A stretch of 36,054 nt of DNA, taken from the IMG/VR virus record IMGVR_UViG_3300024999_000244, positions 1-36,054 of that record; one strand, 5' to 3'. A program made the position numbers and the translations under genes. Positions 828 to 36,050 of the stretch are shown piece after piece (the stretch's first letter is position 1; every line of letters begins with the position of its first letter). The notes under the pieces were generated by a model. That model was given only the letters and a program-made list of their open reading frames with translations. It was not told where the DNA came from and did not search any database. This DNA is from a virus.

Positions 828-914
828 AGAGAATGCGAATTATAGGGGTAGCTCCCCTATTCTCCTGTGCGTATTCTCTTTTTATTTTTATATGTAATGG
901 GTACACAGGAGAAT
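828..914 (+). ncRNA. Structured leader RNA, copy A (terminator plus pseudoknot)
   Basis: Outer stem AGAGAATGCG (828-837) pairs with CGTATTCTCT (870-879), followed by a U-run. Inside is hairpin ATAGGGG/CCCCTAT with loop TAGCT (842-860). The 11 nt at 859-869 are exactly complementary to 904-914, and seven of them also match the ribosome binding site ACAGGAG at 920-926. This copy lacks a separate second hairpin stem. It precedes the GIY-YIG gene at 939. Same architecture as seven other copies in the window. Confidence 0.7.
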
Positions 915-938
915 AAAATTACAGGAGGTTGATTATAA

Positions 939-1970
939 ATGGTAATTAGTGAGAAAGTAGAAGTTAAGCATAATGATAAAATTGGTGGTATTTATAAAAT
1001 AACAAATAAGATAAATAATAAATTTTATGTAGGTAGCACTAATTATTTTTATGGAAGATGGAAAAGTCATATCAATGATTTGAATGGTAATAGACATACA
1101 AATAGGTATTTACAAAATTCCTTTAATAAATATGGTAAAGATAATTTTGAGTTTTCTATTTTAGAAATTATAGACGATGAAAATAATTTGATTATTAGAG
1201 AACAATATTGGATGGATTTATTAAATTCTAATAATTCAAAAATAGGATATAATATTTTACCATTTGCTGGTAGAACATCTGGAGTAAAAAGAACAGAAGA
1301 AACTAAGAGGAAATTAAGCGAAGCAAAAATAGGTGATAAGAATCCTATGTTTAATAAAGAGGTTTCAGAAGAAACAAGAAAAAGACTTAGTGAAGCATTA
1401 ATAAATATGCCAGAAGATAAGAAAAAAGAAATGCTTAAAAAACGTGGAAAGAAAATTAGTGAAATACAAAAAGGAAGGAAATTTAATGATAAAACTAAAC
1501 AAAAAATGAGAGAAAGAAAATTAGGTGGTAAATTAACAGATGAACATAAGAAAAATATAAAAGAATCTTCAAATAGTATAAGAATAGTTCAAATTGATTT
1601 AAAAGGTAATTTAACTAGTGAATGGAATAGTATGATTGATGCTCAAAGAGAATTAAATTATGATTGTGGAGCAATATCTAAATGTTGTAATAAGATTAAT
1701 AAAACATATAAAGGTTATTTATGGTTTTTTGCCAGTGAATATTATTCTAAAGAATTTAATATTGATACATTTATAAATAGACCAAAAAGAGAAAATAGTA
1801 TAAAATGTGCTGTCTTACAAATTGATCCACATTCTAAAAACGTAATTAAAAAATGGGATAATATTGATGATGCAGTGAAAGTATTAAATTTAAATAAATC
1901 TACTTTATTATGTTGTTGTAGAGGGAAATATAAAACACATAAAAATTTTATTTGGAAATTTGTTGATTAA
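939..1970 (+). CDS. GIY-YIG homing endonuclease with NUMOD repeats
   Basis: Free-standing homing endonuclease. The N-terminal GIY-YIG nuclease has GIY at residues 17-19, YVG at 30-32, the catalytic-type Arg at about 40 and a Glu in IIREQYW near residue 88. A linker with NUMOD3-like segments (EETKRKLSEAK, EETRKRLSEA) runs from about 118 to 200. Two NUMOD1-type DNA-binding repeats follow (about 215-265 and 290-340), each ending in a Gly/Trp segment. It sits between the unknown first gene and the terminase genes. The nearest relative in the window is the endonuclease at 13883, with the same NKFYVGS and IIREQYW segments. Translation starts at ATG 939 behind ACAGGAGG. The leader carries the terminator/pseudoknot RNA, so expression is probably restricted. 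Confidence 0.92.
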   Translation: MVISEKVEVKHNDKIGGIYKITNKINNKFYVGSTNYFYGRWKSHINDLNGNRHTNRYLQNSFNKYGKDNFEFSILEIIDDENNLIIREQYWMDLLNSNNSKIGYNILPFAGRTSGVKRTEETKRKLSEAKIGDKNPMFNKEVSEETRKRLSEALINMPEDKKKEMLKKRGKKISEIQKGRKFNDKTKQKMRERKLGGKLTDEHKKNIKESSNSIRIVQIDLKGNLTSEWNSMIDAQRELNYDCGAISKCCNKINKTYKGYLWFFASEYYSKEFNIDTFINRPKRENSIKCAVLQIDPHSKNVIKKWDNIDDAVKVLNLNKSTLLCCCRGKYKTHKNFIWKFVD

Positions 1971-1975
1971 AGGGT

Positions 1976-3079
1976 GTGACTATTATTGCTAGACCTAAAA
2001 AAGCTACAACTAATATTATACAAGTAAAAAAAGAAAAAGTTATGTTTAAATGTGTTTGTTGTGGGATTGATAAAAATCAAGAAAAAGAATACTACAAATC
2101 CAATTCATTAATATTAAAATCAACAAATTCACGTATGGTCGTATGTCGTCAATGTGTAGTAGATTTATATACATATTTAGTAGGTAAACATAACGATTGT
2201 AAAATAGCATTATATTTTTTATGTAGATTGCTTGATGTATATTTTGAATCAAGTTTATATTATAGTGCAGAACAACAAGCAAATAATAGTAATAGTAACA
2301 TTGCACAGATCTACTTCCAAAAATGTAACAGTCTTCCACAATATTCTTCAAAAACATTTTCAGAATCTTCTCCATTAGAAGCTAATACTAATACAAATAT
2401 ATTTGAGACAGAAATTAAATTAGATACAAATGAAGAAGATAAAAAAAACAAAGAAGATGTAATTCGTATGGTTGGATATGATCCATTTGAACATGAAAAC
2501 GCAATAGATCAAAAATATTTACACAATATGTTAATTGATTATCTAGATCAGGATACAGTTGATGATAAATTTAAATTGATTGTTTGTGTGGAAATAGTTA
2601 AAAGTTTTAATCAGATAGATAAAATAAATCAAGCATTATCATTGCTAACTGCTGATGTAAATAATATTCAATCACAAACAGGTGGAGTTAAATCATTAAT
2701 TGAAGCAAAAGAAAAAGTATATCGTTCAATACTTGCTATGGCAAAAGATAATGGTATTTCTGTTAATCATAATAATAATAAAAGTAAAGGTGGAAATACA
2801 TTAAACGGGATAGTTAAAAAATTGAATGAGATAGGATTGTCTACTGCTGAAATAAATTTATTTGATTTAGAAACTTGCGAAGCCATGAAGCAGATTGCAG
2901 ATTTTAGTAATAAAAGTATTTTAGATCAGTTAATGTTTGATGAAAACGATTATGTTGATATGATTTCCCAACAAAGAGATTTAATTAAAAAATTAGATGA
3001 TGAATTAATAAAATTAAAAGAAGATAATAGATTGCTTAAAATAAATACTACAAATTTTAAAGATATTAAAGAATTGTGA
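1976..3079 (+). CDS. terS: Terminase small subunit (probable)
   Basis: Predicted DNA-recognition subunit of the packaging motor, placed directly before the large subunit. Near the N-terminus are two Cys pairs (CVCCG and CRQC) that likely form a zinc ribbon, followed by an acidic Asn-rich middle and a C-terminal coiled coil (about residues 325-360) suited to oligomerisation. The role is inferred from position and general architecture, because small terminases are poorly conserved. Start: the GTG at 1976 overlaps the ribosome binding site AAAGGGTG (1969-1976), so initiation there is unlikely. ATT at 1982 or 1985 has normal spacing, and a non-canonical AUU start is more plausible. Confidence 0.7.
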   Translation: MTIIARPKKATTNIIQVKKEKVMFKCVCCGIDKNQEKEYYKSNSLILKSTNSRMVVCRQCVVDLYTYLVGKHNDCKIALYFLCRLLDVYFESSLYYSAEQQANNSNSNIAQIYFQKCNSLPQYSSKTFSESSPLEANTNTNIFETEIKLDTNEEDKKNKEDVIRMVGYDPFEHENAIDQKYLHNMLIDYLDQDTVDDKFKLIVCVEIVKSFNQIDKINQALSLLTADVNNIQSQTGGVKSLIEAKEKVYRSILAMAKDNGISVNHNNNKSKGGNTLNGIVKKLNEIGLSTAEINLFDLETCEAMKQIADFSNKSILDQLMFDENDYVDMISQQRDLIKKLDDELIKLKEDNRLLKINTTNFKDIKEL

Positions 3080-3101
3080 TTATAGAGGTGATTTTGTTCT
3101 T

Positions 3102-5423
3102 ATGAATTTTTTTATAAGAAACTCCGAAGTGCAAATTTCTCAAAAAAAACTAGAAGGTTATTTAAAATTGGCTGAAATAATACAATGGGGTCGCAAATCA
3201 CCAATACATTTTTGTCAGCGTTTTATGGGGATCGAATTTTTAGATGCACAAAAATATGCGTTTATGAATTCTTGGTTAAAACCTTATAATTTATGGTGTA
3301 TTACAAGGAATGGCGGGAAAGCATTAGCTTTAGATACTAAAATTCCTACTCCAGATGGATTTAAAATAATGAGAGATTTGCGAATAGGAGATTATGTTTT
3401 TGATGAAAATAAAAATCCAACAAAAATAATAAATATATCTGATATATTTACTAGCCATGATTGTTACAGTATAGAATTTGAAGATGAAGAAAATATAATT
3501 TCAGATGCAGATCATTTATGGACAGTTTATGAAAATAATAATAATAAAATAAATATCAAAACATCTGATATATTTTTAAATTTTAAATTTGATAAATATA
3601 GTATTCCTTTAAGTAAAAATAGTAATTATAATAATTTTAGTAAAAAAATATTATTTATAAAAAAGATCAATAGTGTTGCTACAAAATGTATAAGTGTAGA
3701 TAATCCTACTAATTTATATTTATGTGGAGATAAATATACAATAACTCATAATTCAACACTTTCTGCACCATTTATTATGTCAAAAGGTATTTTAATAGGT
3801 GGTCATAATAGTTATATATTAAGTAATGTTTCTGCTCAAAGTCAAGATACATTTATGAAAATTGAACAAATTGCAAAAAAAGAAATTGCAAGTTTCTCTG
3901 GTTTAACAGATTTTTTTATGGGTGAATTAGTTAAATCTGCTGCTAATACAGATGGTTTTACTCATTCTCAAACTGGTTTTTATTACAAGTTATTTAATGG
4001 TAGTTCTGTAAAAAGTTTAAGTGGTAATATAACAAATAATAGGGGAAAACGCTCGTCGCTCAATGTGTATGATGAGAGTGGTTGGACTGAAGAAGATTAT
4101 GTAGTTGCCACAACGCCATTTTTATTGCAAAACTCAACATTTAGACTTGGTGGAGATATGGATGTAACTACTTTCCCTCAACAAATACCTAATCAAAGAT
4201 TATTTATTTCTTCTGCATCAAGTACAGATAGTTATTATTATACATTATATAAAGATTATGCTAAAAGAATGTTTATGGGTGATAAAAATTATTTCGTTTG
4301 TGATCTAAATTGTGAAATAATGATTAATGCTACATATAATGGCAAATTATATCCTGTACCATTAATTAATAAAGATGAAATAGATGCAGAAATGAGGAAA
4401 AATAAGGAAAAAGCCCTACGAGAATTTTTTAACAAGTTCTCTGTTGATGGAGGGGATAATCAACCTTTTAAAAGAGCAATGATTGTAAGAAATAGTGAAG
4501 TTAGATTACCAGTATTAAAAAACGAAGAGCAAGGAAAAAGAAAATTTTTAATTGCTTATGATCCAGCACATGAATATAATAATTCTGTTTGTATGGTTGC
4601 AGAACTTATTAATGACAAAGATGTAGGTGAAAAATTAAATATTTGTGGTGGAATTAGTTTTGTTGATATTGGTAAAAAAAAGAAAACTCCAATGAGGACA
4701 CCTGAACAAATTGCATTATTAAAATTAATGATATTGGATTATAATGGTAAAGGTAATCCAGATTATGAAAATATAGAACAGATTTTGATCGACAGTGGTG
4801 CTGGTGGCCATGGTACTACAATAGCTGACTATCTTATGGAAGATTGGAATGATTCTGAAGGAAGAAAACATAAAGGATTTATTGATAAAGAAGAATGTAA
4901 AGATCATATATCAAAATTTCCAAATGCAGTTAATATATTAAAATTATTAAGTCCACAAAAATATAAAAAGGAAATGTTTGATGCTTTGTTAGAAATGATA
5001 AATCTTGATTTAATATCTTTTACAGGTGAATATGATTCAAAAGGATATTTACAGATACCGTCATTAACTGGAAAAATGGTCGATATAGAAGATGATAATG
5101 GCAATATAGTTCAAGAAAATGAAATTGTTTATAAAAGAGTTAAACTTGATTTTGAAGAAGAATTGGTATTAAAAAATATTGACTTAGCAAAAGAAGAATT
5201 AATTTATACATATAGATATAAAAATGGTGATAATTATAGATATGATACATCTAAAGAAAAAGTAAATGATATAAGTTTTGATAGGGCGTATTGTTTGGCT
5301 ATGCTAGGATGGTATTTACAACAAGTAAGAAGAAAACATATAACAGGGAAAAAGAAAAATACCAACATCTCTCCCTCATCATATTTCGCAATAGCAAATA
5401 AATCATCAAGAGCAAGAAGATAG
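3102..5423 (+). CDS. terL: Terminase large subunit interrupted by a mini-intein
   Basis: ATPase-nuclease that translocates DNA into the prohead. The Walker A sequence TRNGGK-ST is split: GGK ends at residue 73 and ST resumes at 218-219. Walker B is VYDES (Asp324/Glu325). The C-terminal RNase H-like nuclease shows three acidic motifs: AYDPAH (Asp487), LIDSGAGG (Asp564) and SFDRAY (Asp727). Removing the 144-residue intein leaves 629 residues, a normal size. The gene lies between the small subunit and the portal, the classic packaging order. Because the ATP-binding loop is broken, activity must depend on protein splicing. Confidence 0.95.
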   Translation: MNFFIRNSEVQISQKKLEGYLKLAEIIQWGRKSPIHFCQRFMGIEFLDAQKYAFMNSWLKPYNLWCITRNGGKALALDTKIPTPDGFKIMRDLRIGDYVFDENKNPTKIINISDIFTSHDCYSIEFEDEENIISDADHLWTVYENNNNKINIKTSDIFLNFKFDKYSIPLSKNSNYNNFSKKILFIKKINSVATKCISVDNPTNLYLCGDKYTITHNSTLSAPFIMSKGILIGGHNSYILSNVSAQSQDTFMKIEQIAKKEIASFSGLTDFFMGELVKSAANTDGFTHSQTGFYYKLFNGSSVKSLSGNITNNRGKRSSLNVYDESGWTEEDYVVATTPFLLQNSTFRLGGDMDVTTFPQQIPNQRLFISSASSTDSYYYTLYKDYAKRMFMGDKNYFVCDLNCEIMINATYNGKLYPVPLINKDEIDAEMRKNKEKALREFFNKFSVDGGDNQPFKRAMIVRNSEVRLPVLKNEEQGKRKFLIAYDPAHEYNNSVCMVAELINDKDVGEKLNICGGISFVDIGKKKKTPMRTPEQIALLKLMILDYNGKGNPDYENIEQILIDSGAGGHGTTIADYLMEDWNDSEGRKHKGFIDKEECKDHISKFPNAVNILKLLSPQKYKKEMFDALLEMINLDLISFTGEYDSKGYLQIPSLTGKMVDIEDDNGNIVQENEIVYKRVKLDFEEELVLKNIDLAKEELIYTYRYKNGDNYRYDTSKEKVNDISFDRAYCLAMLGWYLQQVRRKHITGKKKNTNISPSSYFAIANKSSRARR
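3321..3752 (+). mobile_element. Ala1 mini-intein in TerL Walker A
   Basis: In-frame insertion covering residues 74-217 of the terminase. Block A begins at Ala74 (ALALDTKIPTPDGF). A block-B-like DADHLWTV follows. Block F (VDNPTNLYLCGDKYTI) runs into the terminal THN (block G), with Ser218 as the +1 nucleophile. At 144 residues there is no room for a LAGLIDADG or HNH endonuclease, so it is a splicing-only mini-intein. Ala at position 1 means splicing should follow the alternative pathway known for KlbA-type inteins, with direct attack by the +1 residue. Confidence 0.88.
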
Positions 5424-7276: not shown

Positions 7277-7309
7277 ATTTAAAATAATTTAATTTGGAAG
7301 ATGATGATA

Positions 7310-8386
7310 TTGAGTAATAAAGTTAATTGGACAGAAAAAGAAATACAAATTTTAAAAGAGAAATATAAAGATAATGACGTATTTGAATTATCATATATTT
7401 TAAAAAGAACAAGACAACAAATATGGACAAAATTAAATAATCTTAATTTAAAATGTAAGAAAATTAGTAGAACTGAATATCATAATTTAAATCAAGTATT
7501 TATAGATTATAAAAGATTATTAAGTAATAAAATTAGAAAATTCAAATCAGATTATAATTTAGAATATGATATATTGCTTTTTAAGTATTACCTAAAAATA
7601 AATAATATTCAAATAACAAAAGAATTTATATATAATATTTTCTTTTCAAAATTACTTAAAGATGCAAAATTATATAGTAGAATAAAGAAAAAATGGCATT
7701 CTTGTTTTGATTTTATTTCTAGATGTTTTCCTGAGATGAAACTTAAAGAATATAATTTTAATACTTTACAAGTAAGAGAAGGATTTTGGAGTAAGAATTA
7801 TAATTGTTTTGATATGATAAGTAACGGTATTGATTCAGCAATTAATGATAAGGTGATTAACGATCAATCTGAAGTTTTATTATTTGATTTAAAAACTATT
7901 TATAAATATTTTCATAAAAGCATGATATATTATCGTGGAGTTGGTATTATAAAAGAATATTTGATTTATAAAAATATAAAGATTGAAAATATTAATTATA
8001 TTGACAATATTAGATTTGATAGTAAAGAGGAAATAAATTTATATAATTTTTTAAAGAAATATTATAATATAATAAAAAATGATAAGATATTATTTAATAG
8101 TAATAATGGAAGATATAAACCTGATTTTTTTATATATTATAATGATATTATAATTATATTAGAATACTTTGGCATGTATAAAAATAAACCAAAACATTCA
8201 ATGTTTAAAAAATATAAAGAAAAAACTATTGATAAAATTAACTATTTTAATACTTTAGATGATTACAAGTTTATAGACCTTTACCCTACTGATTTAAAAA
8301 ACAATTTTGAAGGTGTTAGAGAAAAACTAACATCTTTTTTTATGTCTAATTTTAATATTGATTTAAAGGAGGCATCTAATATTTGA
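7310..8386 (+). CDS. VSR-like (EDxHD) homing endonuclease
   Basis: About 358 residues. The N-terminus (WTEKEIQILKEKY, then QQIWTKLNNL) is a Myb/SANT-like helix-turn-helix. The C-terminal nuclease has NGRYKPDFFIYY and IILEYFGMYKN, the PD-F/EYxG core of the very-short-patch-repair-like homing endonuclease group (I-Bth0305I type), followed by a Lys/His-rich helix and KFIDLYPTDL. It sits between two paralogous small ORFs, so it probably invaded between them. ATG 7301 and 7304 are too close to GGAAG (7296-7300); TTG 7310 fits best. The stop overlaps the start of the next ORF. Confidence 0.8.
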   Translation: MSNKVNWTEKEIQILKEKYKDNDVFELSYILKRTRQQIWTKLNNLNLKCKKISRTEYHNLNQVFIDYKRLLSNKIRKFKSDYNLEYDILLFKYYLKINNIQITKEFIYNIFFSKLLKDAKLYSRIKKKWHSCFDFISRCFPEMKLKEYNFNTLQVREGFWSKNYNCFDMISNGIDSAINDKVINDQSEVLLFDLKTIYKYFHKSMIYYRGVGIIKEYLIYKNIKIENINYIDNIRFDSKEEINLYNFLKKYYNIIKNDKILFNSNNGRYKPDFFIYYNDIIIILEYFGMYKNKPKHSMFKKYKEKTIDKINYFNTLDDYKFIDLYPTDLKNNFEGVREKLTSFFMSNFNIDLKEASNI

Positions 8387-10262: not shown

Positions 10263-10295
10263 ATGGCTAATGTAAACAACGTAGTAACTGGGAGT
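10263..10295 (+). CDS. Virion protein, exon 1 (11 codons)
   Basis: ATG 10263 follows AAGGAGG. The frame encodes MANVNNVVTGS and then hits a stop at 10305 if unspliced. The exon end is placed after T10295 because GGAGT (10291-10295) pairs with GCTCC (10348-10352), giving the group I P1 helix with the required U-G pair at the splice site. Joined to 12175 it keeps frame and yields a 189-residue protein. Confidence 0.75.
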
Positions 10296-10755
10296 AATAA
10301 ACAATAATTATCAATAAATACATATTTATATAATTGATAATCGTAAAGCTCCGCATATAGAGTAATCTGTATGTAGTGATAGATGACGTATAACAATCTA
10401 TCCCATATCTCAACAATTGCTGGCAATCCCTAAAGCTAGTTAAACTACAACGTAGGTATGAAACAAAACCAAACGTGAATGTTGCGAAAGCAGAAAAAAT
10501 TAACTAGATAGTGCATGGTTAAATCCTAAACACTAAAATAAAATGGGTCTTCAGCAGCATATGTCCGAATAGGATACTGTTCAACGACTATCCCTCATAA
10601 GGGGAGTAGGGTCAAGTGACTCGAAACGAGAGACTCCTTAGAAATAAGGATGATGATATAGTCTGTGCTTGCATGGAAATCATGCAGAAGTTCATTTTAA
10701 ACAATATTGTTTAATTGAGAACTGGTAGAGATTAACGACCTCTATTGAACACGTT

Positions 10756-10791
10756 AAAAACATACTTAAATATGTATATTTTTATTTATTT
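10756..10791 (+). repeat. Inverted repeat, left arm, around tnpB
   Basis: Thirty-six bases whose reverse complement matches 12149-12183 with a single deleted A. The arms close the loop that contains the leader RNA, tnpB and its 3' region. Confidence 0.85.
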
Positions 10792-10798
10792 AAATATT

Positions 10799-10881
10799 AA
10801 CAATGGGACAGAGGGTTGCTCCTTTTCTGATTACTGCAATAATCAGATTACCATTGTTTTTATATTGCCAACTTTTTGCAG
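10799..10881 (+). ncRNA. Structured leader RNA, copy G, before tnpB
   Basis: Outer stem AACAATGG (10799-10806) pairs with CCATTGTT (10851-10858), followed by Ts. Hairpin 1 is AGAGGG/CCTTTT with loop TTGCT. Hairpin 2 is CTGATT/AATCAG (10827-10846) with loop ACTGCAAT. Loop bases CTGCAA are exactly complementary to TTGCAG at 10876-10881, just upstream of the tnpB ribosome binding site. Confidence 0.7.
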
Positions 10882-10896
10882 AAAGGAGGTGAGGAT

Positions 10897-12027
10897 ATGA
10901 TAAGGTCTTATAAAATAAGATTATTACCAAATCAAGAACAAGAACAATTATTATGGAAACATATTAATACATCTAGATTTGTTTGGAATTTTGGTTTATC
11001 TCACCAAGAAGAATTATATAAAAATAATCAAAAACATCTAAGTGGTTATGATCTTAGAAAAGTATTAACAAATCTTAAACAACAAGATGGGTATATGTGG
11101 TTAAAAGAAGTATCTGCTTATACTATATCCGATGTTTGTTTAGATTTAGATAATGCTTATAAAAGATTTTTTAATAAACAAAATCACAAACCAAAATTTA
11201 AAAAGAAAAATAAATGTAAAAATAGTTTTCCTATAAGATCAGATAGGTTTTATTTTAATAATAATTGTGCTAACATTGAAAAAATTGGTAAAATAAAATA
11301 TCAAACTAATTATAATTTACATCAAGGTAGAAATATGTGTAAATTTACAAATCCAAGAATTAAATATAAAAATAACAAATGGATATTAAGTTTTGGTATG
11401 GAGTGTGATAGTCAAACACAAATATTTACTGATAATTCGATGGGAATTGATTTGGGAATTAAAGAACTTGCAATAGTTAGTTGTGGTGATAAATTTAAGG
11501 TTTTTAAAAATATTAATAAGACTAAAATAGTTAAAAAATTAAATAAACAATTAAAACATGCTCAAAGAAAGGTTAGTAGAAAATATTATACTAATAAATC
11601 TTGGAACAAGTCTAATAATATTATTAAAGCCGAAAAACGAGTTAAACAACTATATAATAAACTATCAAATATTAGAAATAATTATATTCATCAAATTACT
11701 AGAGAATTAATTAATATGCTTCCATATAGAATAGTAATGGAAGATTTAAATGTCAAAGGTATGATGAAGAATAAACATCTTTCTAAAGCAATCCAAGAAC
11801 AATGTTTTTATGAATTCAAAAGACAAATGCAATATAAATGTGAAGAATATGGAATAAAATTTGTTTTAGCAGATAGATTTTATCCTAGTTCTAAACTTTG
11901 TAGTGATTGTGGTTTTAAAAAGAATAATTTAAAATTGTCTAATAGAATTTATAAATGTGATAATTGTGGATTGATTATTGATAGGGATAAAAATGCAAGT
12001 ATAAATCTTATGAATTATAAAGGTTGA
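10897..12027 (+). CDS. tnpB: TnpB RNA-guided nuclease (intron-encoded)
   Basis: 376-residue TnpB of the IS200/IS605 and IStron type. The N-terminus MIRSYKIRLLPNQEQE and TSRFVWNFGL are canonical. The split RuvC residues are all present: Asp in GIDLGIKE, Glu in VMEDLNVKGM and Asp in IDRDKNASINL. Between the last two is the zinc finger CSDCG...CDNCG. The protein therefore looks catalytically complete. ATG 10897 is chosen because AAGGAGGTG lies immediately upstream; TTG 10876 would place the start inside the leader RNA. No tnpA transposase is present, so the protein probably acts as an RNA-guided homing nuclease for the intron. Confidence 0.93.
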   Translation: MIRSYKIRLLPNQEQEQLLWKHINTSRFVWNFGLSHQEELYKNNQKHLSGYDLRKVLTNLKQQDGYMWLKEVSAYTISDVCLDLDNAYKRFFNKQNHKPKFKKKNKCKNSFPIRSDRFYFNNNCANIEKIGKIKYQTNYNLHQGRNMCKFTNPRIKYKNNKWILSFGMECDSQTQIFTDNSMGIDLGIKELAIVSCGDKFKVFKNINKTKIVKKLNKQLKHAQRKVSRKYYTNKSWNKSNNIIKAEKRVKQLYNKLSNIRNNYIHQITRELINMLPYRIVMEDLNVKGMMKNKHLSKAIQEQCFYEFKRQMQYKCEEYGIKFVLADRFYPSSKLCSDCGFKKNNLKLSNRIYKCDNCGLIIDRDKNASINLMNYKG

Positions 12028-12174
12028 TTAATTAAAATTTTGAGGATTAATTGACTTTGTAGGACTTTGATGCATCCGAATATAATCCTTTGGAGAATTA
12101 TATCAAACAGAAGTAGTCTTTTGACAAAACTGGATTCTATGAATAAGGAAATAAATAAAAATATACATATTTAG
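12028..12174 (+). ncRNA. Candidate omega RNA / 3' end of intron
   Basis: In TnpB systems the guide RNA scaffold spans the tnpB 3' end and the right end of the element, with the guide copied from the adjoining flank. Here the 147 nt after tnpB contain a hairpin (ATATAAT with ATTATAT around 12079-12104) and then the right inverted-repeat arm. If the intron end is the scaffold end, the guide would begin at 12175, i.e. exon 2. No scaffold consensus could be checked. Confidence 0.4.
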
Positions 12175-12183
12175 TATGTTTTT
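12149..12183 (+). repeat. Inverted repeat, right arm, spanning the 3' splice site
   Basis: Reverse complement of 10756-10791 with one base missing. The last nine bases (12175-12183) lie in exon 2 under the splice site proposed here. Confidence 0.8.
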
Positions 12184-12711
12184 AGCATCAGATACGGTAT
12201 TGTAAATCTTCGTAAAGTAGCAGGTGTAAAAACAGGTGAACATAACATTCAATATGCTTTAAATGCAACTGATTTTGCTACTACTGCTTGTCAAAATGGT
12301 TTTCTTTTAGAAGAAGAGCATTATACAAAAACTCTTGGTTTACCTGGTGCTGCAACTACTAGGGTTGGTTTAGTTGCATGTGTAGAAAAAATGTATGATG
12401 AAAGTGATATGAGTTTGGGTAATTTTAGACTTAATCTTAATGAATATTTGCCTAGAATTTATCGTATGAAAATAGGTGATATGTTCGATACTAATAACTT
12501 TAAATATGATGATGGAGATTATGCTAACTATGCTGCTATCGTAGCTGCTATCACTGCTGGTACTGCTGTATATGCATATCCTTCCACTAATGGTCAGATT
12601 GAATTAGAACCTATTCAAAATGCAGGTGCTGCTGTTGAATTGCAAGCAACCAGAGTCGTAACTTTACCTGCTGGAGAGGCTGGATTAATGTTTGTTTGCA
12701 CAAAAAGCTAA
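12175..12711 (+). CDS. Virion protein exon 2 (head decoration/fibre-like)
   Basis: The frame is open from the intron end to the stop at 12709-12711 and continues exon 1. The ATG at 12391 is internal. The mature product would be about 189 residues, with IVNLRKVAGVKTGEHNIQYAL near the start and Ala/Thr/Val-rich beta strands and a TLPAGEAGLMFVCTKS end. It lies directly upstream of the major capsid gene, a usual place for a head decoration or stabilisation protein. The family is not firmly recognised. The alternative that translation starts at 12391 is unlikely, because there is no ribosome binding site there and the coding frame extends upstream. Confidence 0.75.
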   Translation, partial: YVFSIRYGIVNLRKVAGVKTGEHNIQYALNATDFATTACQNGFLLEEEHYTKTLGLPGAATTRVGLVACVEKMYDESDMSLGNFRLNLNEYLPRIYRMKIGDMFDTNNFKYDDGDYANYAAIVAAITAGTAVYAYPSTNGQIELEPIQNAGAAVELQATRVVTLPAGEAGLMFVCTKS

Positions 12712-13762: not shown

Positions 13763-13785
13763 GGATTATTTTAAAATAAAGATAG

Positions 13786-13874
13786 GACAAATTGCGCTAT
13801 TTGTCTGATAAGAGGGTATCCTTTCTACCCTCTTTTTTATTTTTTAAAATTTTGAAAGGTTAATCATAGAAAGG
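13786..13874 (+). ncRNA. Structured leader RNA, copy B
   Basis: Hairpin 1 is GACAAAT/ATTTGTC with loop TGCGCT (13786-13805). Hairpin 2 is AAGAGGGTA/TACCCTCTT with loop TCCTTTC (13810-13834), running into Ts and doubling as the capsid-operon terminator. Loop CCTTTC is complementary to GAAAGG at both 13854-13859 and 13869-13874; the second copy is the ribosome binding site of the endonuclease. The outer stem is weak (AT pairs only). Confidence 0.7.
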
Positions 13875-13882
13875 GTGATAAA

Positions 13883-14704
13883 TTGGAACAAATTAATTCA
13901 ATAATTATTACAAATGACACTAATAATTCTGGGATTTATTTAATTATTAATTTACAAAATAATAAGTTTTATGTAGGTAGTTCAGTAAATGTAAAGAAAA
14001 GAAAGAATAAACATTTGCAACAATTAAGAAAAAACAATCATGATAATTCATATTTACAATATTCTTTCAATAAATATGGTGAAAGTAATTTCGTATTTAC
14101 ATTAATTGAAGATGTTCCTGATAAAAATAATTTAATTATAAGAGAACAATATTGGATAGATACATTGGATGCTTGTAATAAAAATATTGCTTATAATATT
14201 TTACCAAAAGCTAATAGTATGCTAGGATATAAACATGGTTCAAAATCTACTGAAAAACATCGTCAAGCAGGATTAAATTTATCACCAGAATCAAGACAAA
14301 AAATTGCAGAATCTAAATATAAATCAGTTATTCAATTAACTCTTGAAGGTCAATTTGTAAAGAAATGGATTAGCATTAAAGAAATATGTGATACATTGGA
14401 ATTTGATCAACCACATATTTCTACATGTTGTGCTAATAAAAATAATGTAAAACAACACAAAGGATTTATATGGGTATGGGAATATAATTATAAAGATTTT
14501 GATATTAACAATTATAAAAGACCATACAAAAACAATAAAGGTAAAATTACTTTACAATATGATTTAGATGGTAATTTTATTAAAGAATGGTTAAATGCTA
14601 AAACAGCATCTAGGGAATTAGGATTAGAATACATATCAATAACTGAATGTTGCACAGGGAGAATTAAAAAATCTCAAGGTTTCATCTGGAAATATGCATC
14701 ATAA
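13883..14704 (+). CDS. GIY-YIG homing endonuclease
   Basis: 273 residues from TTG 13883 (binding site GAAAGGG). The GIY-YIG domain has GIYLIINLQ at residues 18 onward and KFYVGSS, with Arg and Lys following; IIREQYWID holds the conserved Glu. Two NUMOD1-type repeats follow (about residues 165-205 and 228-270), each with an LxGxFxxxWxSxKxA-like start and a GFIWxW/KY end. It is clearly related to the gene at 939 but lacks the long NUMOD3 linker. It sits between major capsid and head-completion genes as an independent insertion. Confidence 0.92.
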   Translation: MEQINSIIITNDTNNSGIYLIINLQNNKFYVGSSVNVKKRKNKHLQQLRKNNHDNSYLQYSFNKYGESNFVFTLIEDVPDKNNLIIREQYWIDTLDACNKNIAYNILPKANSMLGYKHGSKSTEKHRQAGLNLSPESRQKIAESKYKSVIQLTLEGQFVKKWISIKEICDTLEFDQPHISTCCANKNNVKQHKGFIWVWEYNYKDFDINNYKRPYKNNKGKITLQYDLDGNFIKEWLNAKTASRELGLEYISITECCTGRIKKSQGFIWKYAS

Positions 14705-16622: not shown

Positions 16623-16646
16623 AATTAATAAATAAATTTTAAAATT

Positions 16647-16719
16647 AGAAAACTAGGCTGACGAGCCGAAAAGTGGAATCCTACCACCTGTTTTCTTTTT
16701 ATTATCTTTATTAGGGATT
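16647..16719 (+). ncRNA. Structured leader RNA, copy C
   Basis: Outer stem AGAAAAC/GTTTTCT (16647-16653 with 16690-16696), then a U-run. Hairpin 1 is GGC/GCC with loop TGACGA, then linker GAAAA. Hairpin 2 is GTGG/CCAC with loop AATCCTA (16673-16687). Loop bases AATCCT can pair with GGGATT at 16714-16719, with one G-U pair. It precedes the endonuclease at 16735. Confidence 0.65.
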
Positions 16720-21438: not shown

Positions 21439-21467
21439 TTGACAGATTAGAAATATAATAGTATAAT
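21439..21467 (+). promoter_or_regulatory. Sigma-A-type promoter before the 824-aa endonuclease
   Basis: Perfect TTGACA (21439-21444), 17-nt spacer, perfect TATAAT (21462-21467). The spacer contains GATTAGAAATATAAT (21445-21459), a variant of the recurrent phage motif, so two promoter types may overlap here. The predicted start falls within the first bases of leader RNA copy D. Confidence 0.8.
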
Positions 21468-21469: not shown

Positions 21470-21553
21470 AAATAGGGATAGGTAGGAGTAATTACCCTAC
21501 TGATAAGAGCCTCACCTCTTCCCTATTTATAATTTTTGTGAGGAAAAGTGAGG
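21470..21553 (+). ncRNA. Structured leader RNA, copy D
   Basis: Outer stem AAATAGGG/CCCTATTT (21470-21477 with 21521-21528), then AT plus Ts. Hairpin 1 is GTAGG/CCTAC with loop AGTAATTAC, identical to copy E. The linker is TGAT. Hairpin 2 is AAGAG/CTCTT with loop CCTCAC (21510-21515). The loop is exactly complementary to GTGAGG at 21538-21543 and again at 21548-21553; the second copy is the ribosome binding site of the endonuclease. Confidence 0.75.
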
Positions 21554-21561: not shown

Positions 21562-24036
21562 ATGTTATTAACTAAAAAATTAAAAGTAAAATGGAATCCA
21601 ACAACTAGAAAATACTATGAAGTTTTAGGATACAAATATACTAAACACAATGATGAATTTTTAATACCTATAGAACATTTACATCATGGTTCAAACACAG
21701 ACATAGAATTTCAATGTGACGAATGTAGTGAAATTGAAACTAGAATATATCGAGATTATGTTTTATTAAAAAATAAATATAATAAAGATATATGTGGTAT
21801 ATGTCTTAATAGGTTAAATATGAAAAATAGAAGTTTAAAAGCAAAAACGAAAGAAGATTTTGGGTATTATGCTAATCATGAAAATAGAAAATATGAATTA
21901 AATAAATATTTAAAAAAGTATAATGAATTATCAAATATGATTAACAATACAGAAGGAAAAAGATTGTATGATAACTTTCATAGCCATAAAGATGATATTT
22001 ATGATACTGCAATAGAATTAGGTTATAAAATAGAAGATATTTGTAAATCATTGCCTAAAAATTATTATATCAAGTATCCTGAAATATTAAAAGAAAAATT
22101 ATTAATATTCATAGAAGAAAATAAAAGATTCCCTAAAAGTAAGGAAATAGAAAAGATATTACATGTAAGCAATAAGTTTATTAGTAACTTTGGTGGTATT
22201 AATGAATTTAAAAAATTGTTAGGATATGATGATAGTAAAGATTTAATAGATCTTCGTGGAGACTATAACAAATCTTTAGGGGAATTAATTTGTGCAAATT
22301 ATTTTTGTTCACAAGGATTAAAAGATAAATATAAAAGAGAACAATATCCATTCAGTAAAGAGAATAGATATTTTAGGTCTGATTTTACTTTTTATTTAGA
22401 AAATAATAAAGAATTACATATTGAAGTATGGGGATTTAAAAAATCAGAAATTAGTTCTGAAAGAGCAAAAGAATATCATAAAGTGAGAAATGTAAAAGAA
22501 AATTTATACCAAAAATATTCAAATAATATGATATTAATTGGTATTGATTATGAGATATTCGACTTAAAATATGATGAAATACAAAAATATTTATATAGTT
22601 TAATTTCACCATACATTAATTTAAAATTTAAAGATGTGTCATATAAAAAGTTACTATCTCCATCCCTTATTAGTGATGATGAAATATTTAATGGTATTAT
22701 GGAAATTAGTTCTGATGGAAAAACATTCCCTACAACAATTGAATTATGTTCATATAATTCTTGTTTATATAGTCAAATATTAAAACGTGGTTACAGTTAT
22801 AATGAATTTGCTAATAAATATAGTGTTAAAACAAAATTAGATAAAAAAGAATGGACTAAGAAATTAGTATTTGGACATTTTAGTAATATTTTAAACGAAG
22901 GAAAAGTTATTAATAAAAAATCATTAAATGAAGAATATAGTGGTTTATCTGAAGCAACAGAAAAATTTGGATACATGACAAAATTAAAATTAGAATATTT
23001 TATAAAATTAAATGAAATACCTAATCAGGAATTAGATTGGGTGATTAATTTAGCAAATAATACAACAAAAACAACATCTAATTTTTCTAAAACAGAAGTA
23101 AATAATGCCAAAAAGTTATTAGATAAATTATATATTAATGTAGAAAATAATGTTTGTTGTAAAACTTGTGGTAAAGAATTTACTCAATATCATATTTATG
23201 AATTGCATTGTCAAGAATGTATTTCAAATTCTAATGGGAAATCAAAATATGCAAAACCATTATATACTGAAACTGAATACAATGATAACTTTATTATTAA
23301 AGCAATAAAACCATATTTATTAACTAGTAAAGGATTTAATAATGTGTCTGATATTAAAATACAATCTTATAGAAATTATTTTAATATGAAATGGATAGAT
23401 ATTATAAAGAAATATAATAGATTCGATGATTTATATGATTATATTATTAATGAATTTAAAATTTATTGCAAGATAAATACTAAAAATAAAGACATACATA
23501 GATTTGCAAATAATCATGATTATATAACATATGATATTCTTACTAGAATAGGATTAGATAAAATTTATAAGGATATGGGAATAGTTAAACAAAAGTATAC
23601 AGAAGATGATTATAAAAATAATTTCTTAAATATAGTTAAAAATCTTGGGTATATACCAATATATAAAGAATTTATTGACAATACTAAAATAAATATTGTT
23701 TCTTATTCTAATAAATTTAACATACATAAAAATATATATGATGAAATTGTTAAAATGTATTCTTCAGAAATTGATTATGAAGATTATATAAAACGTAAAA
23801 AGGAACATAAATCAAATATTGGTAAAGAAACTGGTAAATTAGCAAGAATTCTTAGCGATGAATATTTACAAAAAGAATTTACTGATACATTTGATAATTA
23901 TTTTGCACAATATAACAAATATCCTTCTAGTAAAGTATTTAGTTTAGTATCTAATCATGATAGTAGTGTTTATAGGAAAAGATATAAAAAATCATGGAGT
24001 GAAATTTGTGAAATGTATGGTTATTGTAGTAGTTAA
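21562..24036 (+). CDS. Large VSR/EDxHD-like homing endonuclease, 824 aa
   Basis: Start ATG 21562 is seven bases after GTGAGG; GTG 21538 is itself part of the leader pairing. The N-terminus (VKWNPTTRKYYEVLGYKYTK, then FQCDECSEIETR...CGICLNRL) is the zinc-ribbon module common in phage endonucleases. A restriction-like nuclease core follows at about residues 235-330: SLGELICANYF, RYFRSDFTFYLENNKELHIEVWG, then LIGIDYEIF. The rest is a series of helical DNA-binding-like repeats (FPKSKEIEKIL, KTFPTTIELCSYN, YIPIYKEFIDN, YPSSKVFSLVSNHDSSVYRK) and a further zinc knuckle (CCKTCGKEFTQYHIYELHCQEC). Unusually long for its class. It lies where a tape-measure gene would be expected. Confidence 0.75.
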   Translation: MLLTKKLKVKWNPTTRKYYEVLGYKYTKHNDEFLIPIEHLHHGSNTDIEFQCDECSEIETRIYRDYVLLKNKYNKDICGICLNRLNMKNRSLKAKTKEDFGYYANHENRKYELNKYLKKYNELSNMINNTEGKRLYDNFHSHKDDIYDTAIELGYKIEDICKSLPKNYYIKYPEILKEKLLIFIEENKRFPKSKEIEKILHVSNKFISNFGGINEFKKLLGYDDSKDLIDLRGDYNKSLGELICANYFCSQGLKDKYKREQYPFSKENRYFRSDFTFYLENNKELHIEVWGFKKSEISSERAKEYHKVRNVKENLYQKYSNNMILIGIDYEIFDLKYDEIQKYLYSLISPYINLKFKDVSYKKLLSPSLISDDEIFNGIMEISSDGKTFPTTIELCSYNSCLYSQILKRGYSYNEFANKYSVKTKLDKKEWTKKLVFGHFSNILNEGKVINKKSLNEEYSGLSEATEKFGYMTKLKLEYFIKLNEIPNQELDWVINLANNTTKTTSNFSKTEVNNAKKLLDKLYINVENNVCCKTCGKEFTQYHIYELHCQECISNSNGKSKYAKPLYTETEYNDNFIIKAIKPYLLTSKGFNNVSDIKIQSYRNYFNMKWIDIIKKYNRFDDLYDYIINEFKIYCKINTKNKDIHRFANNHDYITYDILTRIGLDKIYKDMGIVKQKYTEDDYKNNFLNIVKNLGYIPIYKEFIDNTKINIVSYSNKFNIHKNIYDEIVKMYSSEIDYEDYIKRKKEHKSNIGKETGKLARILSDEYLQKEFTDTFDNYFAQYNKYPSSKVFSLVSNHDSSVYRKRYKKSWSEICEMYGYCSS

Positions 24037-29307: not shown

Positions 29308-29383
29308 TCAGAGGATAGTGATTGCAACATGATAAGTAGTTTTCCTAGACTACTTCCTCTGACTTATTTTTATTTTAGGAAAA
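29308..29383 (+). ncRNA. Structured leader RNA, copy F
   Basis: Outer stem TCAGAGGA/TCCTCTGA (29308-29315 with 29355-29362), then U-rich. Hairpin 1 is weak (GTG/CAT around ATTGCAA). The linker is GATA. Hairpin 2 is AAGTAGT/ACTACTT with loop TTTCCTAG (29334-29355). TTTTCCTA (29340-29347) is exactly complementary to TAGGAAAA (29376-29383), and five of its bases also match the ribosome binding site TAGGAGG at 29396. Confidence 0.75.
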
Positions 29384-29411: not shown

Positions 29412-30164
29412 ATGGAAGAAAATATTGAAATTATAAATCCATATGGTTTTATTTATATAACAACTAATTTAATTAATGGAAAGAAATATATTGGTCAAAA
29501 ATTATTTATTAAATATTGGCAAAATTATTTAGGTAGTGGTATTCAGTTAATTAATGCAATTAAAAAGTATGGGAAAGAATATTTTAGTAGAGAAATTATT
29601 GCTATTGCTTATTCTGAAGATGAATTGAACAAGTTAGAAAAAGAATCTATTAAAATTCATAACGCTGTAAAAAGTAATGATTATTATAATATTACACATG
29701 GAGGAGATGGAGGTTGGATTGGATTAAAACATTCTGAAGAATCAAAAATAAAAATGAGTCAATCTCGTACTGGTCTACATCCTTCTAAAGAAACTATAGA
29801 AAAACTTAAACAACGTACAGGTGAAAATAATCCTCATTATGGTAAACATCATACAGAAGAAACAAAAAGAAAGATAAGTGAAAAGAAAAAAGGGAAAGTA
29901 TATACAGAAGAACGAAAACTTAAAATGAATTTTACATGGTTAAAAGGAAAAAATAATCCTAGATATGGTATAAAGACATCTGAAGAAACTAAATTTAAAC
30001 AAAGTGAAGCAAAAAGAAAATTTGATAATGAAAATGTAAATGAAATACGTAATAAATATGCAACAGGAAAATATACAATTACAAGTTTAGCACAAGAATA
30101 TAAAGTAGCAATTTCATTAATTAGTAATGTAATTAATCATAAAAGAGCTTACAAATATATATAA
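29412..30164 (+). CDS. GIY-YIG homing endonuclease with NUMOD3 motifs
   Basis: 250 residues, ATG 29412 with TAGGAGGT. The catalytic domain reads GFIYITTNLINGKKYIGQKL, so the canonical GIY is GFIY here, followed by YIGQ. The Glu lies in LEKESIKIHN. The middle contains four NUMOD3-type segments (GLKHSEESKIKMSQ, GLHPSKETIEKLKQR, HYGKHHTEETKRKISEK, RYGIKTSEETKFKQSEA). The C-terminus is a helix-turn-helix (YTITSLAQEYKVAISLISNVINHKRAYKY). A different subtype from the two GIY-YIG genes at 939 and 13883. Confidence 0.92.
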   Translation: MEENIEIINPYGFIYITTNLINGKKYIGQKLFIKYWQNYLGSGIQLINAIKKYGKEYFSREIIAIAYSEDELNKLEKESIKIHNAVKSNDYYNITHGGDGGWIGLKHSEESKIKMSQSRTGLHPSKETIEKLKQRTGENNPHYGKHHTEETKRKISEKKKGKVYTEERKLKMNFTWLKGKNNPRYGIKTSEETKFKQSEAKRKFDNENVNEIRNKYATGKYTITSLAQEYKVAISLISNVINHKRAYKYI

Positions 30165-32753: not shown

Positions 32754-32785
32754 AAGACATCTCATAAATCAAGAGGTGTCTTTTC
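32754..32785 (+). terminator. Intrinsic terminator
   Basis: AAGACATCTC (32754-32763) pairs with GAGGTGTCTT (32773-32782, one G-U), then Ts. It lies between the second recurrent motif and leader RNA copy E. Confidence 0.75.
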
Positions 32786-32811
32786 TTGTGTTGAAATATA
32801 GCACAAATTTT

Positions 32812-32943
32812 ACTAGATGCTTAATGGAGTAATTACCCATTAAAAAGGAGAGTTGTCCTTTCTCTCTGCATCTAGTTTTTATATTTTATATATAAAAAAT
32901 AAAAAAGGATGATGTTAATGGTTAAAAATAAAATGAAAAGGAC
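32812..32943 (+). ncRNA. Structured leader RNA, copy E, before primase
   Basis: Perfect 9-bp outer stem ACTAGATGC/GCATCTAGT (32812-32820 with 32868-32876), then a U-run. Hairpin 1 is TTAATGG/CCATTAA with loop AGTAATTAC. Hairpin 2 is GAGAG/CTCTC with loop TTGTCCTTT (32848-32866). TCCTTT pairs with AAAGGA at 32904-32909 (binding site of the leader ORF). GTCCTTT pairs exactly with AAAGGAC at 32937-32943 (binding site of the primase). Confidence 0.78.
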
Positions 32944-32959
32944 GTGGTATGAATGTTAG
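32918..32959 (+). CDS. 13-aa leader ORF before primase
   Basis: ATG 32918 behind AAAAAAGGATG encodes MVKNKMKRTWYEC and stops at TAG 32957-32959, overlapping the primase ATG (32953) by 7 nt. The overlap and dedicated binding site suggest a translated leader coupled to primase expression. Confidence 0.5.
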   Translation: MVKNKMKRTWYEC

Positions 32960-34770
32960 TTAAATGTATGGTTGATAGAAAAACTTTTGAAAACAAACCA
33001 AGTGGAGATCAATCTAAAGGTATCCAATTTAGATTGGCACAAACAGAAATTGAAATTGAAGAATTAGCAAATTTATTAAGTAATGGTGCAACATTTAAAC
33101 CTGCATTACTTAAAGGTAGAAAAAGTGCAGATTGGATCAATCAACAATTATTTGCTCTAGATTTTGATGGTGGTACTACTATTGAAAAAGAATTAAATAA
33201 TTGTAGAGAATTAAATATATTACCTGTGTTTGGTTATAAAACTTTTTCATATACTCAATATAAAGAAAAATTTAGATTAGTATTTTGTAGTAATATAGTA
33301 ATAACTAATGTGGAAACAAGAAATAAATTTCAGAAATTATTAATTGCATTATTTCCTACTAGTGATTCTGTAACTTTTGATCCTACAAGGTTATTCTTTG
33401 GTGGAAAAGAATTAATTAATTGTGATTATAATAATAGAATAAATATTAATAATATTATGATTAAATTTAAAGATATATTAAAAAGTATAGTTGATTCATC
33501 TACTTTGAGGTTAATCAATACTAATACAATAAACTCTTCTTCTATTAGTATGCAGAAAGCTCAAAGTCCCCGTCCTGTAAGGGTTTACGAGGAATTTTCC
33601 CATTTTAATGCAATAAAATATTTAGATGTAATTTTAATGAAACATCTTCTTCAAATAAATGGTGACAAAATAATTTGTGTAAACAAACAAGAAGTTTATG
33701 ATTTTATTAATGGAATAGATTTATGTGAATTTACAGATATACATAGTATGGTAAATTGTATATTACCTGATCATCAAGATGATACTCCTTCAGCACATAT
33801 TTATACAACTGACAGTGGAACACAAATATATAAATGTTTTGGTTGTGATGCAAAATATACAATAATATCTTTAGTAGAAAAATTAGCAAAATGTAAAAGA
33901 ATTAAAGCAATTGAATTTATTAAGAAAGTATATAATATTGAATTACAACAAACAGAATGGCAAAAACAACAATTAGAAATACTTGATATAAATATTGAAT
34001 TATTATTATCTGATGAATTTAAAGAAATATATCCTCAACTACATTCTTTAATAAGAACAAGAAAGAATAATCTAATTGCATTAAATAACTATGCAAAAAT
34101 TAATATAAAAGATGAAGATTTTTGTGTAGATGAAAATCCATTGTTTTTTGCTTCTCTGACTAAAATTATGGATATTTTTGGTTCAAAAGATAGAACTAAA
34201 GTATCACAAAGTATTACATTATTTGCTCTATTAAGTTTATTAAATAAAATACCACATGAGAAATTACCTAAAGAAACTTTTAATAAAGCAAAACATATTG
34301 CTGCAAAATATGGTCTTACTAAATTAGTTAATTTTTATAGTATTGATCAATATGGTGTAGATTCTTTAGAAGAGAGCAATAAAATTGCTAAAACATTAAA
34401 AGATAACAATATATCTTTAAAAGGTATTTCTAGAGAATATTTATTAAGAACATTTGGTAAAGAATTAACAAATAAAATATATCCTCAATATATTTATGAA
34501 AATGAATTAGGCACTTCTGAAAAATCTAATGAAAATAGTAGTAAAATAGCATCTTATATTTTAGACGAAATAGAGAAAAAAGGTTATGTTTTAGAAAAAG
34601 AATTGAAAATTGATAATATAACAGAAACACAGTGGAAACGTAGTATTCAAGAAATATTGGATGGTTATGGATTAATTAAAATAACTGCTAATAAAGAAAT
34701 AAAATTAAAATATAATATTGATGTTGCAGAAAGAAGTTATCCAAAGATTATTGTTAAAGGAGGTGAATAA
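32953..34770 (+). CDS. Phage DNA primase (AEP/PrimPol-like plus zinc finger)
   Basis: 605 residues. The N-terminal 170 residues look like an archaeo-eukaryotic primase/PrimPol-type domain: FALDFDGG (candidate metal-binding Asp pair), FGYKTFSYTQYKEKFRLVF and DPTRLFFGGKE, which recalls plasmid and phage primases. At about 275-300 is a CHC2-type zinc finger: CILPDHQDDTPSAHIY, then YKCFGCDAKYTI. The rest is helical, ending in a winged-helix-like segment (EKKGYVLEKELKIDNITETQ). Probably synthesises primers at the phage fork. ATG 32953 is preceded by AAAAGGAC, which is also the target of leader RNA copy E. Confidence 0.8.
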   Translation: MLVKCMVDRKTFENKPSGDQSKGIQFRLAQTEIEIEELANLLSNGATFKPALLKGRKSADWINQQLFALDFDGGTTIEKELNNCRELNILPVFGYKTFSYTQYKEKFRLVFCSNIVITNVETRNKFQKLLIALFPTSDSVTFDPTRLFFGGKELINCDYNNRININNIMIKFKDILKSIVDSSTLRLINTNTINSSSISMQKAQSPRPVRVYEEFSHFNAIKYLDVILMKHLLQINGDKIICVNKQEVYDFINGIDLCEFTDIHSMVNCILPDHQDDTPSAHIYTTDSGTQIYKCFGCDAKYTIISLVEKLAKCKRIKAIEFIKKVYNIELQQTEWQKQQLEILDINIELLLSDEFKEIYPQLHSLIRTRKNNLIALNNYAKINIKDEDFCVDENPLFFASLTKIMDIFGSKDRTKVSQSITLFALLSLLNKIPHEKLPKETFNKAKHIAAKYGLTKLVNFYSIDQYGVDSLEESNKIAKTLKDNNISLKGISREYLLRTFGKELTNKIYPQYIYENELGTSEKSNENSSKIASYILDEIEKKGYVLEKELKIDNITETQWKRSIQEILDGYGLIKITANKEIKLKYNIDVAERSYPKIIVKGGE

Positions 34771-35302: not shown

Positions 35303-35317
35303 CATTGTAAATATAAT
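35303..35317 (+). promoter_or_regulatory. Recurrent motif CATTGTAAATATAAT before HU-like gene
   Basis: Copy of the recurrent motif. A sigma-A-like pair also exists here (TTAACA at about 35297-35302, 17-nt spacing, TATACT), the same overlap seen at 21439. A hairpin CCTCA/TGAGG (35334-35354) follows in the leader. Confidence 0.55.
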
Positions 35318-35395
35318 AGTATACTTACGTTAACCTCAGAAATAAGAACTGAGGAATAAAAAATAAATTATAAATTAAAAGGAGAAATGATTTTT

Positions 35396-35725: not shown

Positions 35726-35794
35726 GGATTAGTATATCGTCTACATAGAATATAGTAGATAACAATTAAATAATTGAATAGGATTAAAAATGTC

Positions 35795-35814
35795 GAGAGT
35801 CTTTGCTCACTCTC
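35795..35814 (+). other. Small hairpin
   Basis: GAGAGT/ACTCTC with an 8-nt loop after the HU gene. No U-run; possible weak terminator. Confidence 0.35.
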
Positions 35815-35885
35815 TTATGAAATAATTTATGTTTTCAAGTAATAATTGATAACTAAATAGCACCTAACTAAATAGTAAGATGATT

Positions 35886-35917
35886 AGAGAGTAGATTAAA
35901 TATCTGCTCTCTTTTTT
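35886..35917 (+). terminator. Intrinsic terminator
   Basis: AGAGAG-T-AGAT pairs with ATCT-G-CTCTCT (35886-35912), followed by Ts. The 35726-36054 stretch has no gene, only hairpins. Confidence 0.8.
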
Positions 35918-35948
35918 ATTTTATTTGTTACATATTTTATTGCAGAAC

Positions 35949-35983
35949 AATACCTATCACATTTATTTGTGGTGGGTATTTTT
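35949..35983 (+). terminator. Intrinsic terminator
   Basis: 13-bp stem (35949-35961 with 35968-35980, two G-U pairs), loop TTTATT, then Ts. It directly precedes leader RNA copy H. Confidence 0.75.
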
Positions 35984-35996
35984 GTGTGATGATATA

Positions 35997-36050
35997 AAAA
36001 CAGTCTAGGGTCGCTCCCGAAAGTAGTAATCCTTAACTATTGACTGTTTT
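35997..36050 (+). ncRNA. Structured leader RNA, copy H (runs off window)
   Basis: Perfect 9-bp outer stem AAAACAGTC/GACTGTTTT. Hairpin 1 is GGG/CCC with loop TCGCT, linker GAAA. Hairpin 2 is GTAGT/ACTAT with loop AATCCTTA. The expected downstream complement (about AAGGATT) and the gene it serves lie beyond 36054. Confidence 0.65.

Follow-up and report, generated by a model that had tools for sequence, protein, structure and literature searches.

The window analysed here, the whole 36,054-base virus record IMGVR_UViG_3300024999_000244, comes from an AT-rich phage with terminase, portal and major capsid genes, and its capsid protein has its nearest relatives in large Firmicutes phages. A structured RNA element of about 60-75 nucleotides (nt) recurs along the + strand, in most copies as a closing stem that encloses two hairpins and is followed by a U-rich tail. 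In most elements the loop of the second hairpin is complementary to two places in the following gene's leader. Site 1 lies shortly downstream of the U tract, and site 2 coincides with the Shine-Dalgarno (SD) sequence. The first-pass annotation of this DNA had listed eight + strand copies, and all eight are present where it placed them and fold better than shuffled sequence (z from -2.0 to -5.5). The copies, their sites (with matches in base pairs, bp) and the genes that follow, some as open reading frames (ORFs), are:

826-881, + strand: copy A, closing stem 826-837/870-881, one hairpin at 842-860, U run after 881
858-869, + strand: antisense linker/loop of copy A, TATTCTCCTGTG
904-915, + strand: site 1 of copy A, CACAGGAGAATA, 12 bp to the loop
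921-928, + strand: site 2 of copy A, the SD of the GIY-YIG gene, ACAGGAGG, 7 bp to the same loop
939-1970, + strand: GIY-YIG/NUMOD3 homing-type endonuclease (Pfam PF01541, 2e-15)
10799-10858, + strand: copy G, closing stem, weak hairpin 1, hairpin 2 loop CTGCAA at 10834-10839; fold z -3.5
10876-10889, + strand: sites of copy G, TTGCAG (6 bp to the loop), then the SD AAAGGAGG
10876-12027, + strand: TnpB, an RNA-guided nuclease (PF07282, PF01385)
13775-13844, + strand: copy B, closing stem with U run, hairpin 1, GATA linker, hairpin 2 loop ATCCTTTCTA at 13818-13827
13854-13859, + strand: site 1 of copy B, GAAAGG
13867-13876, + strand: site 2 of copy B, the SD region, TAGAAAGGGT, up to 10 bp
13883-14704, + strand: GIY-YIG endonuclease with a TTG start (PF01541, 3.2e-13)
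16646-16703, + strand: copy C, an int-alpA RNA, hairpin 2 loop GAATCCTAC at 16676-16684
16712-16719, + strand: site 1 of copy C, TAGGGATT
16735-17732, + strand: EDxHD-type nuclease, split into ORFs 16735-17118 and 17364-17732
21439-21467, + strand: perfect sigma-70 promoter, TTGACA-17-TATAAT (12/12), ending 3 nt upstream of copy D
21470-21528, + strand: copy D, closing stem, hairpin 1 loop AGTAATTAC, GATA(A) linker, hairpin 2 loop CCTCAC at 21510-21515
21538-21543, + strand: site 1 of copy D, GTGAGG
21548-21553, + strand: site 2 of copy D, the SD, GTGAGG
21565-24036, + strand: large nuclease-like gene with a PD-(D/E)XK-like motif and an N-terminal module common to the homing-type proteins of L247, L284 and L290
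29308-29362, + strand: copy F, closing stem, weak hairpin 1, GATAA linker, hairpin 2 loop TTTTCCTA at 29340-29347
29376-29383, + strand: site 1 of copy F, TAGGAAAA
29396-29402, + strand: site 2 of copy F, the SD, TAGGAGG
29412-30164, + strand: SegE-like GIY-YIG endonuclease (PF19835, PF07460)
32812-32876, + strand: copy E, closing stem, hairpin 1 loop AGTAATTAC, hairpin 2 loop TTGTCCTTT at 32853-32861
32904-32910, + strand: site 1 of copy E, AAAGGAT, which doubles as the SD of a 13-codon ORF
32937-32944, + strand: site 2 of copy E, the SD of a 605-aa gene, AAAGGACG
32953-34770, + strand: DnaG-type (CHC2) primase, a non-nuclease target (PF01807, 2.5e-7)
35997-36050, + strand: copy H, int-alpA-like, loop AATCCTTA at 36028-36035, target past the window end

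The RNA class had gone unrecognised in the first-pass annotation. It is not unknown, because copy C matches int-alpA in Rfam (RF02996, Rfam type small RNA, sRNA) with 48.4 bits against a threshold of 35.8, and the other copies have the same fold; the element thus belongs to a known but unexplained class, with most copies still outside the curated model. Copy H falls below the threshold (32.2 bits, E = 0.005), the remaining six copies gave no match in the Rfam search of the window, and the threshold is exceeded in the records of 7 of 50 relatives. The window copies have the int-alpA closing stem, UA, hairpin 1, GAAAA/GATAA linker and hairpin 2. The complete order of closing stem, UA, hairpin 1, GAAAA, hairpin 2, short linker and closing stem is found in copies B, C, D, E and F through a covariance model of our own (R1) and in copy H through RF02996, and in part in copies A and G. 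The window copies differ from the Rfam family in that most of them score below its model and precede homing-type nucleases, or a primase, in Firmicutes-like phages. They do not lie between an integrase and alpA, the location that gave the family its name and that is no part of RF02996. The class reportedly goes back to Weinberg in 2017; the literature that we searched contained no paper on its function, and one paper names int-alpA without giving it a function.

Two generic structure descriptors (outer stem, hairpins and pseudoknot) proved unspecific, with comparable counts in shuffled windows, and relatives were therefore collected for comparative evidence. They were gathered from viral contigs through their nuclease and capsid genes; many records were picked by the nuclease query, and G002-G015 and G051 by capsid alone. 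R1 was built from nine relatives and no window sequence, with a structure-padded seed because MAFFT misaligned the hairpins when given the raw copies. It recovers copies D (E = 1e-7), E (1.2e-7), F (1.6e-5), B (1.5e-4) and C (5e-4), and the next-best match in the window has E = 2.5. A second model, R2, matches copy B at E = 8.7e-10 and finds elements in the whole records of 43 of the 50 relatives.

Comparison of these sequences also establishes the fold. As had been claimed, the stems differ in sequence yet stay paired: in an alignment of 29 sequences each of the 19 nested pairs has compensatory changes on both sides, pairing holds in 91.9% of cells compared with 45-49% for slid partners, and covariation scores 0.714, as opposed to 0.224 after shuffling. 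This alignment was fitted to the proposed structure and is hence biased towards it; the contrast is still large. G-U pairs are frequent alternatives in the helices. In order, the element consists of a closing stem of about 7-12 bp, usually UA, hairpin 1, a GAAAA/GATAA linker, hairpin 2 with its variable loop, the closing strand and a tail in which T makes up 0.65 of the sequence against 0.32 in the later leader. The hairpin 1 loop, which is subgroup-specific (GACG, AGTAATTA, TNGCT or GTTCGAAA), and the linker are the parts most conserved in sequence. The shared design described in the first-pass annotation, with closing stem, hairpins, linker and U run, stands for most copies, but copy A has one hairpin and copy G matches it in part. 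The outer stem of copy B needs correction, being present as AAUAAAGA / UUUUUAUU and drawing on the U run.

Comparative evidence settles most of the copies as members; G, which is backed by nothing beyond its own sequence, is the weakest. Copy A (fold z -5.5) is unmatched by R1 and R2; its second hairpin is absent, and the antisense stretch sits in the linker. Comparative backing for copy A comes from a single relative, L003, whose homologous locus (68% protein identity) has the same architecture built from other stems, and a different matching pair, CTCTGCACA/TGTGCAGAG. Because both the stems and the matching pair differ, the match in copy A has been kept through compensating change.

The new finding is the target rule, by which the hairpin 2 loop addresses two sites in the leader. 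The first-pass annotation had described the loop as pairing with one downstream segment; the complementarity is real, but there are usually two partners, the second of them the SD, so that a plain pseudoknot is an incomplete picture. For example, the loop CTCCTAC of L231 is complementary to GTAGGAG at both -72 and -15, and the loop CTCCTAAA of L230 to TTTAGGAG at -62 and -17. To set the target match apart from ordinary SD/anti-SD likeness, each leader was held fixed and loops were exchanged among 42 non-redundant elements in 20,000 permutations, with start codons picked by rule. Own loops match better than swapped ones in the site 1 region (z = 11.5) and in the SD region (z = 11.0), with 0 of 20,000 permutations reaching the observed values, although these z values overstate the number of independent events because related elements share loops. 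Control regions inside the ORFs stay within +-1.4, and a reversed-loop control gives a weak z of 2.3. Matches of at least 5 bp occur at both sites in 37 of the 42 elements, and one loop fits both sites about equally (6.55 and 6.57 bp). The hairpin 1 loop has no signal against leader targets (z = 0.8). Loop swapping also rules out that the loops are mere anti-SD mimics, including for loops that lack anti-SD motifs. Among the 36 gene leaders of the window, copies A (at site 1), G, B and F match their own best, and for copy D the own leader ties for best; for copy E the own gene at 32953 is best, a rank shared with others. Since the own leader ranks best for most copies, one genome appears to hold mostly separate addresses.

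The genes that follow the element are mostly nucleases. The first-pass annotation had counted six mobile nucleases, of GIY-YIG, EDxHD and TnpB type, among seven visible next genes. The count stands, with GIY-YIG enzymes after copies A, B and F, TnpB after G, the split EDxHD-type gene after C and the large nuclease-like gene after D. The seventh gene, after copy E, encodes a CHC2 primase, and the call for copy D's protein, which found no match in the Pfam search, draws only on its shared modules and motif. Among the relatives the next genes are mostly EDxHD, GIY-YIG, HNH, DUF7487 or PD-(D/E)XK-like, with a few primase-like genes (L276, L278) and one structural gene (L259). In the records chosen by capsid, assignable next genes are nucleases except for three that are primase-like, a weak hit at G004 13404 aside. 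Because an F-type element precedes the GIY-YIG gene in the window and a near-identical one an EDxHD gene in L133/L270, the element is common to several nuclease types. Covariation, whole-record matches and downstream genes together back the earlier proposal of a shared, selected RNA control element ahead of mobile nucleases.

The rule extends beyond the window and its relatives. A pattern taken from hairpin 1 of int-alpA was run against collections of bacterial and viral sequences; among the matches listed, to which all figures for this broad set refer, 200 loci yielded 142 elements with full architecture (84 non-redundant) in Proteobacteria, Firmicutes, Chloroflexi, Acidobacteria and others, judged by record title. 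For the 84 elements site 1 gives z = 18.3 and the SD z = 9.7 (0 of 10,000 permutations), with one of three control regions at 2.6 and the others at 0.2 and -1.8. The rule holds for 14 loops without CCT, TCC, CTC or CCC (z = 6.0 and 4.8). Site 1 is the better conserved contact, the distance from element end to start codon has a median of 34 nt (interquartile range 30-37), and T makes up 0.50 of the tail against 0.21 later. Assigned next genes include HNH nucleases, endonuclease VII-like genes, DUF927 primases and an AntA antirepressor, and many next genes have no assignment. The E. coli member lies after an integrase gene and before the next ORF, with the site 1 match GCCTTA/TAAGGC. The Rfam model itself holds nothing of the two-site rule beyond a conserved 3' UAAGGG.

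The closest known system is the C4 antisense RNA of phages P1 and P7. In P1 it is likewise stem-closed, and its constant hairpin is followed by one with the loop TTCACTAAC, which pairs with GTTAGTGAG at -18 of icd. In the annotated P1 record target a2 begins 4 nt past the C4 RNA, b2 lies in the leader of icd, and translation is repressed; the loop b' lies over the ribosome-binding site, and specificity comes from a' (PMC5320573). Elements of the window and of int-alpA share this layout and the geometry of two target sites (a2, b2). They differ in that C4 uses two stretches (a' and b'), whereas a single loop serves both sites here. The C4 model (RF01695) has no match in the window at E<=10, with P1 as a control at 68.8 bits, and R2 has no match in P1. 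We therefore suggest that the element works like C4, not that it is C4. A second comparison is the CI RNA of P4 and its relatives (seqA-seqC, IsrK), processed antisense RNAs that recognise two complementary sites (PMC4825925). One of the sites of CI lies upstream, and its effect is on the termination of transcription; the hairpin 2 loops studied here have no detectable upstream site (z = -0.5). In the homing-endonuclease leaders of T4 and Aeh1 (I-TevI, mobE, segB), structure at the ribosome-binding site holds the nuclease down (PMC3014915). The first-pass annotation had pointed to such hairpins. The outcome is likely to be similar, but the architecture differs: those leaders form local hairpins that include the ribosome-binding site, whereas in the window a stem-closed RNA stands apart and carries a covarying address loop, and the SD lies outside the folded element and is matched by a distant loop.

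We think it likely that the window elements are divergent int-alpA RNAs that act as C4-like antisense regulators of the gene immediately after them. The closing stem and U-rich tail would form the 3' end of the RNA, probably by intrinsic termination or processing, and the hairpin 2 loop would be its address. The loop would pair with site 1 and with the SD at site 2, in cis where transcription reads through and possibly also in trans once the RNA is released, and by blocking ribosome access would keep the mobile nuclease (or primase, or antirepressor) low. The perfect sigma-70 promoter before copy D is also found in L248 and L263, and at 11/12 in L284, and the RNA can therefore start its own transcript. 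Several points weigh against this reading, besides the sharing of loops noted above. That the RNA accumulates and represses translation by pairing over the SD is what we infer from sequence, and with it the direction of the effect. An obvious own promoter precedes only some of the elements, and counts of consensus promoters overall are not above those in shuffles, with only the copy D promoter and its likes in L248, L263 and L284 standing out. For copy C the own leader ranks 10 of 36, and its site 1 is down to 5 bp because of one extra G relative to close relative L273 (TAGGATT, 7 bp). Finally, copy G fits the design by eye, but TnpB relatives of the gene after it have no such element upstream, so that it is probably, rather than certainly, a genuine copy. 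Its SD AAAGGAGG can also pair with the 3' arm of hairpin 1 (CTCCTTT). In L273 the EDxHD nuclease relative is intact at 332 aa, and in the window the copy C regulator and its nuclease gene may be decaying together.

The alternative that survives best, which we consider possible but doubtful, is a switch acting purely in cis. A pseudoknot of the loop with site 1 and pairing of the loop with the SD would be its ON and OFF states, site 1 acting as a decoy that frees the SD under the control of folding kinetics or a trigger, with no free RNA. The close and regular spacing in the broad set and the nearly equal fit of one loop to both sites are in keeping with such a switch. However, the U-rich tail after the closing stem and the precedent of P1 C4, which acts as a processed RNA of its own (PMC5320573), point to an independent RNA, and a decoy leaves the better conservation of site 1 in the broad set unexplained. 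A ligand or protein sensor of riboswitch or leader type, with hairpin 1 loop and linker as sensor and the hairpin 2 loop as expression platform, is unlikely. It would account for the conservation of a loop and linker that pair with nothing in the leader, but the hairpin 1 loop varies by subgroup and the regulated genes are mobile-element genes of no single pathway. Less probable still is a plain intrinsic terminator or attenuator between the operon and the inserted nuclease gene, with loop matches that are incidental anti-SD-like sequence. Most window copies do have a closing stem and a U tract, yet loop swapping destroys the match even for loops without anti-SD trinucleotides, a conserved hairpin 1 loop and linker would be superfluous for termination, and a simple terminator scan detects only copy B of the eight. 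A DNA-level feature travelling with each nuclease cassette, such as a transposon end or a homing target folding as single-stranded DNA, would fit the position of nearly all relatives' elements directly upstream of a mobile nuclease and the near-identical elements before different nuclease types (copy F, L133/L270), but is very improbable given the frequent G-U alternatives, the fixed position relative to start codon and SD, and the sense orientation of every copy to the next gene.

C4-like regulation by int-alpA RNAs would give an orphan structured RNA of many bacterial phyla and phages a concrete, testable role. Antisense control of the C4 type, known from P1-like immunity, would then also cover homing-type endonucleases of at least three unrelated families, TnpB and phage primases. 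It also suggests how phages tolerate many selfish nucleases, each with its own separately addressed off-switch, and the logic of scaffold plus address is simple and perhaps reusable as a translational regulator. More broadly, int-alpA RNAs could form an addressable antisense system that is widespread among phages and satellites, in which a constant scaffold carries an interchangeable loop, the address of the own gene is encoded twice, toxic mobile-element genes are doubly locked in cis and in trans, and a genome holds many differently addressed copies; for this wider proposal we regard the case as evenly balanced.

Further features were seen near the elements and elsewhere in the window. The region 10264-12391 is IStron-like: sequence at 10583-10687 that resembles the T4 td group I intron in its 3' part is followed by copy G and TnpB, and a RAGATH-18 guide RNA (69 bits) lies at 12087-12150, after TnpB. 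Rfam has no group I intron match within 10264-12391. At 32780-32811, and upstream of the L275, L297 and L268 elements, an inverted repeat of the form TTGTG-N10-11-CACAA or similar follows a terminator-like hairpin and looks like an operator or promoter region. In L455, L459, L461 and other viral contigs, int-alpA precedes an 858-aa DUF927/primase-like gene, with a target often near the start codon. The EDxHD leaders of L131, L144 and L149 carry a one-hairpin, terminator-like element whose CCTCC arm faces the SD AGGAGG, and which may be a simpler form of this control. An unannotated 361-aa ORF at 7301-8386, between portal and next gene, has no Pfam match and no evident int-alpA element upstream; its N terminus resembles the nuclease-associated L282/L291. 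The terminase large subunit gene (3102-5423) has an apparent intein-like insert at the Walker A motif (...NGGKALALDTKIPTPDG ... YTITHNSTLSA...).

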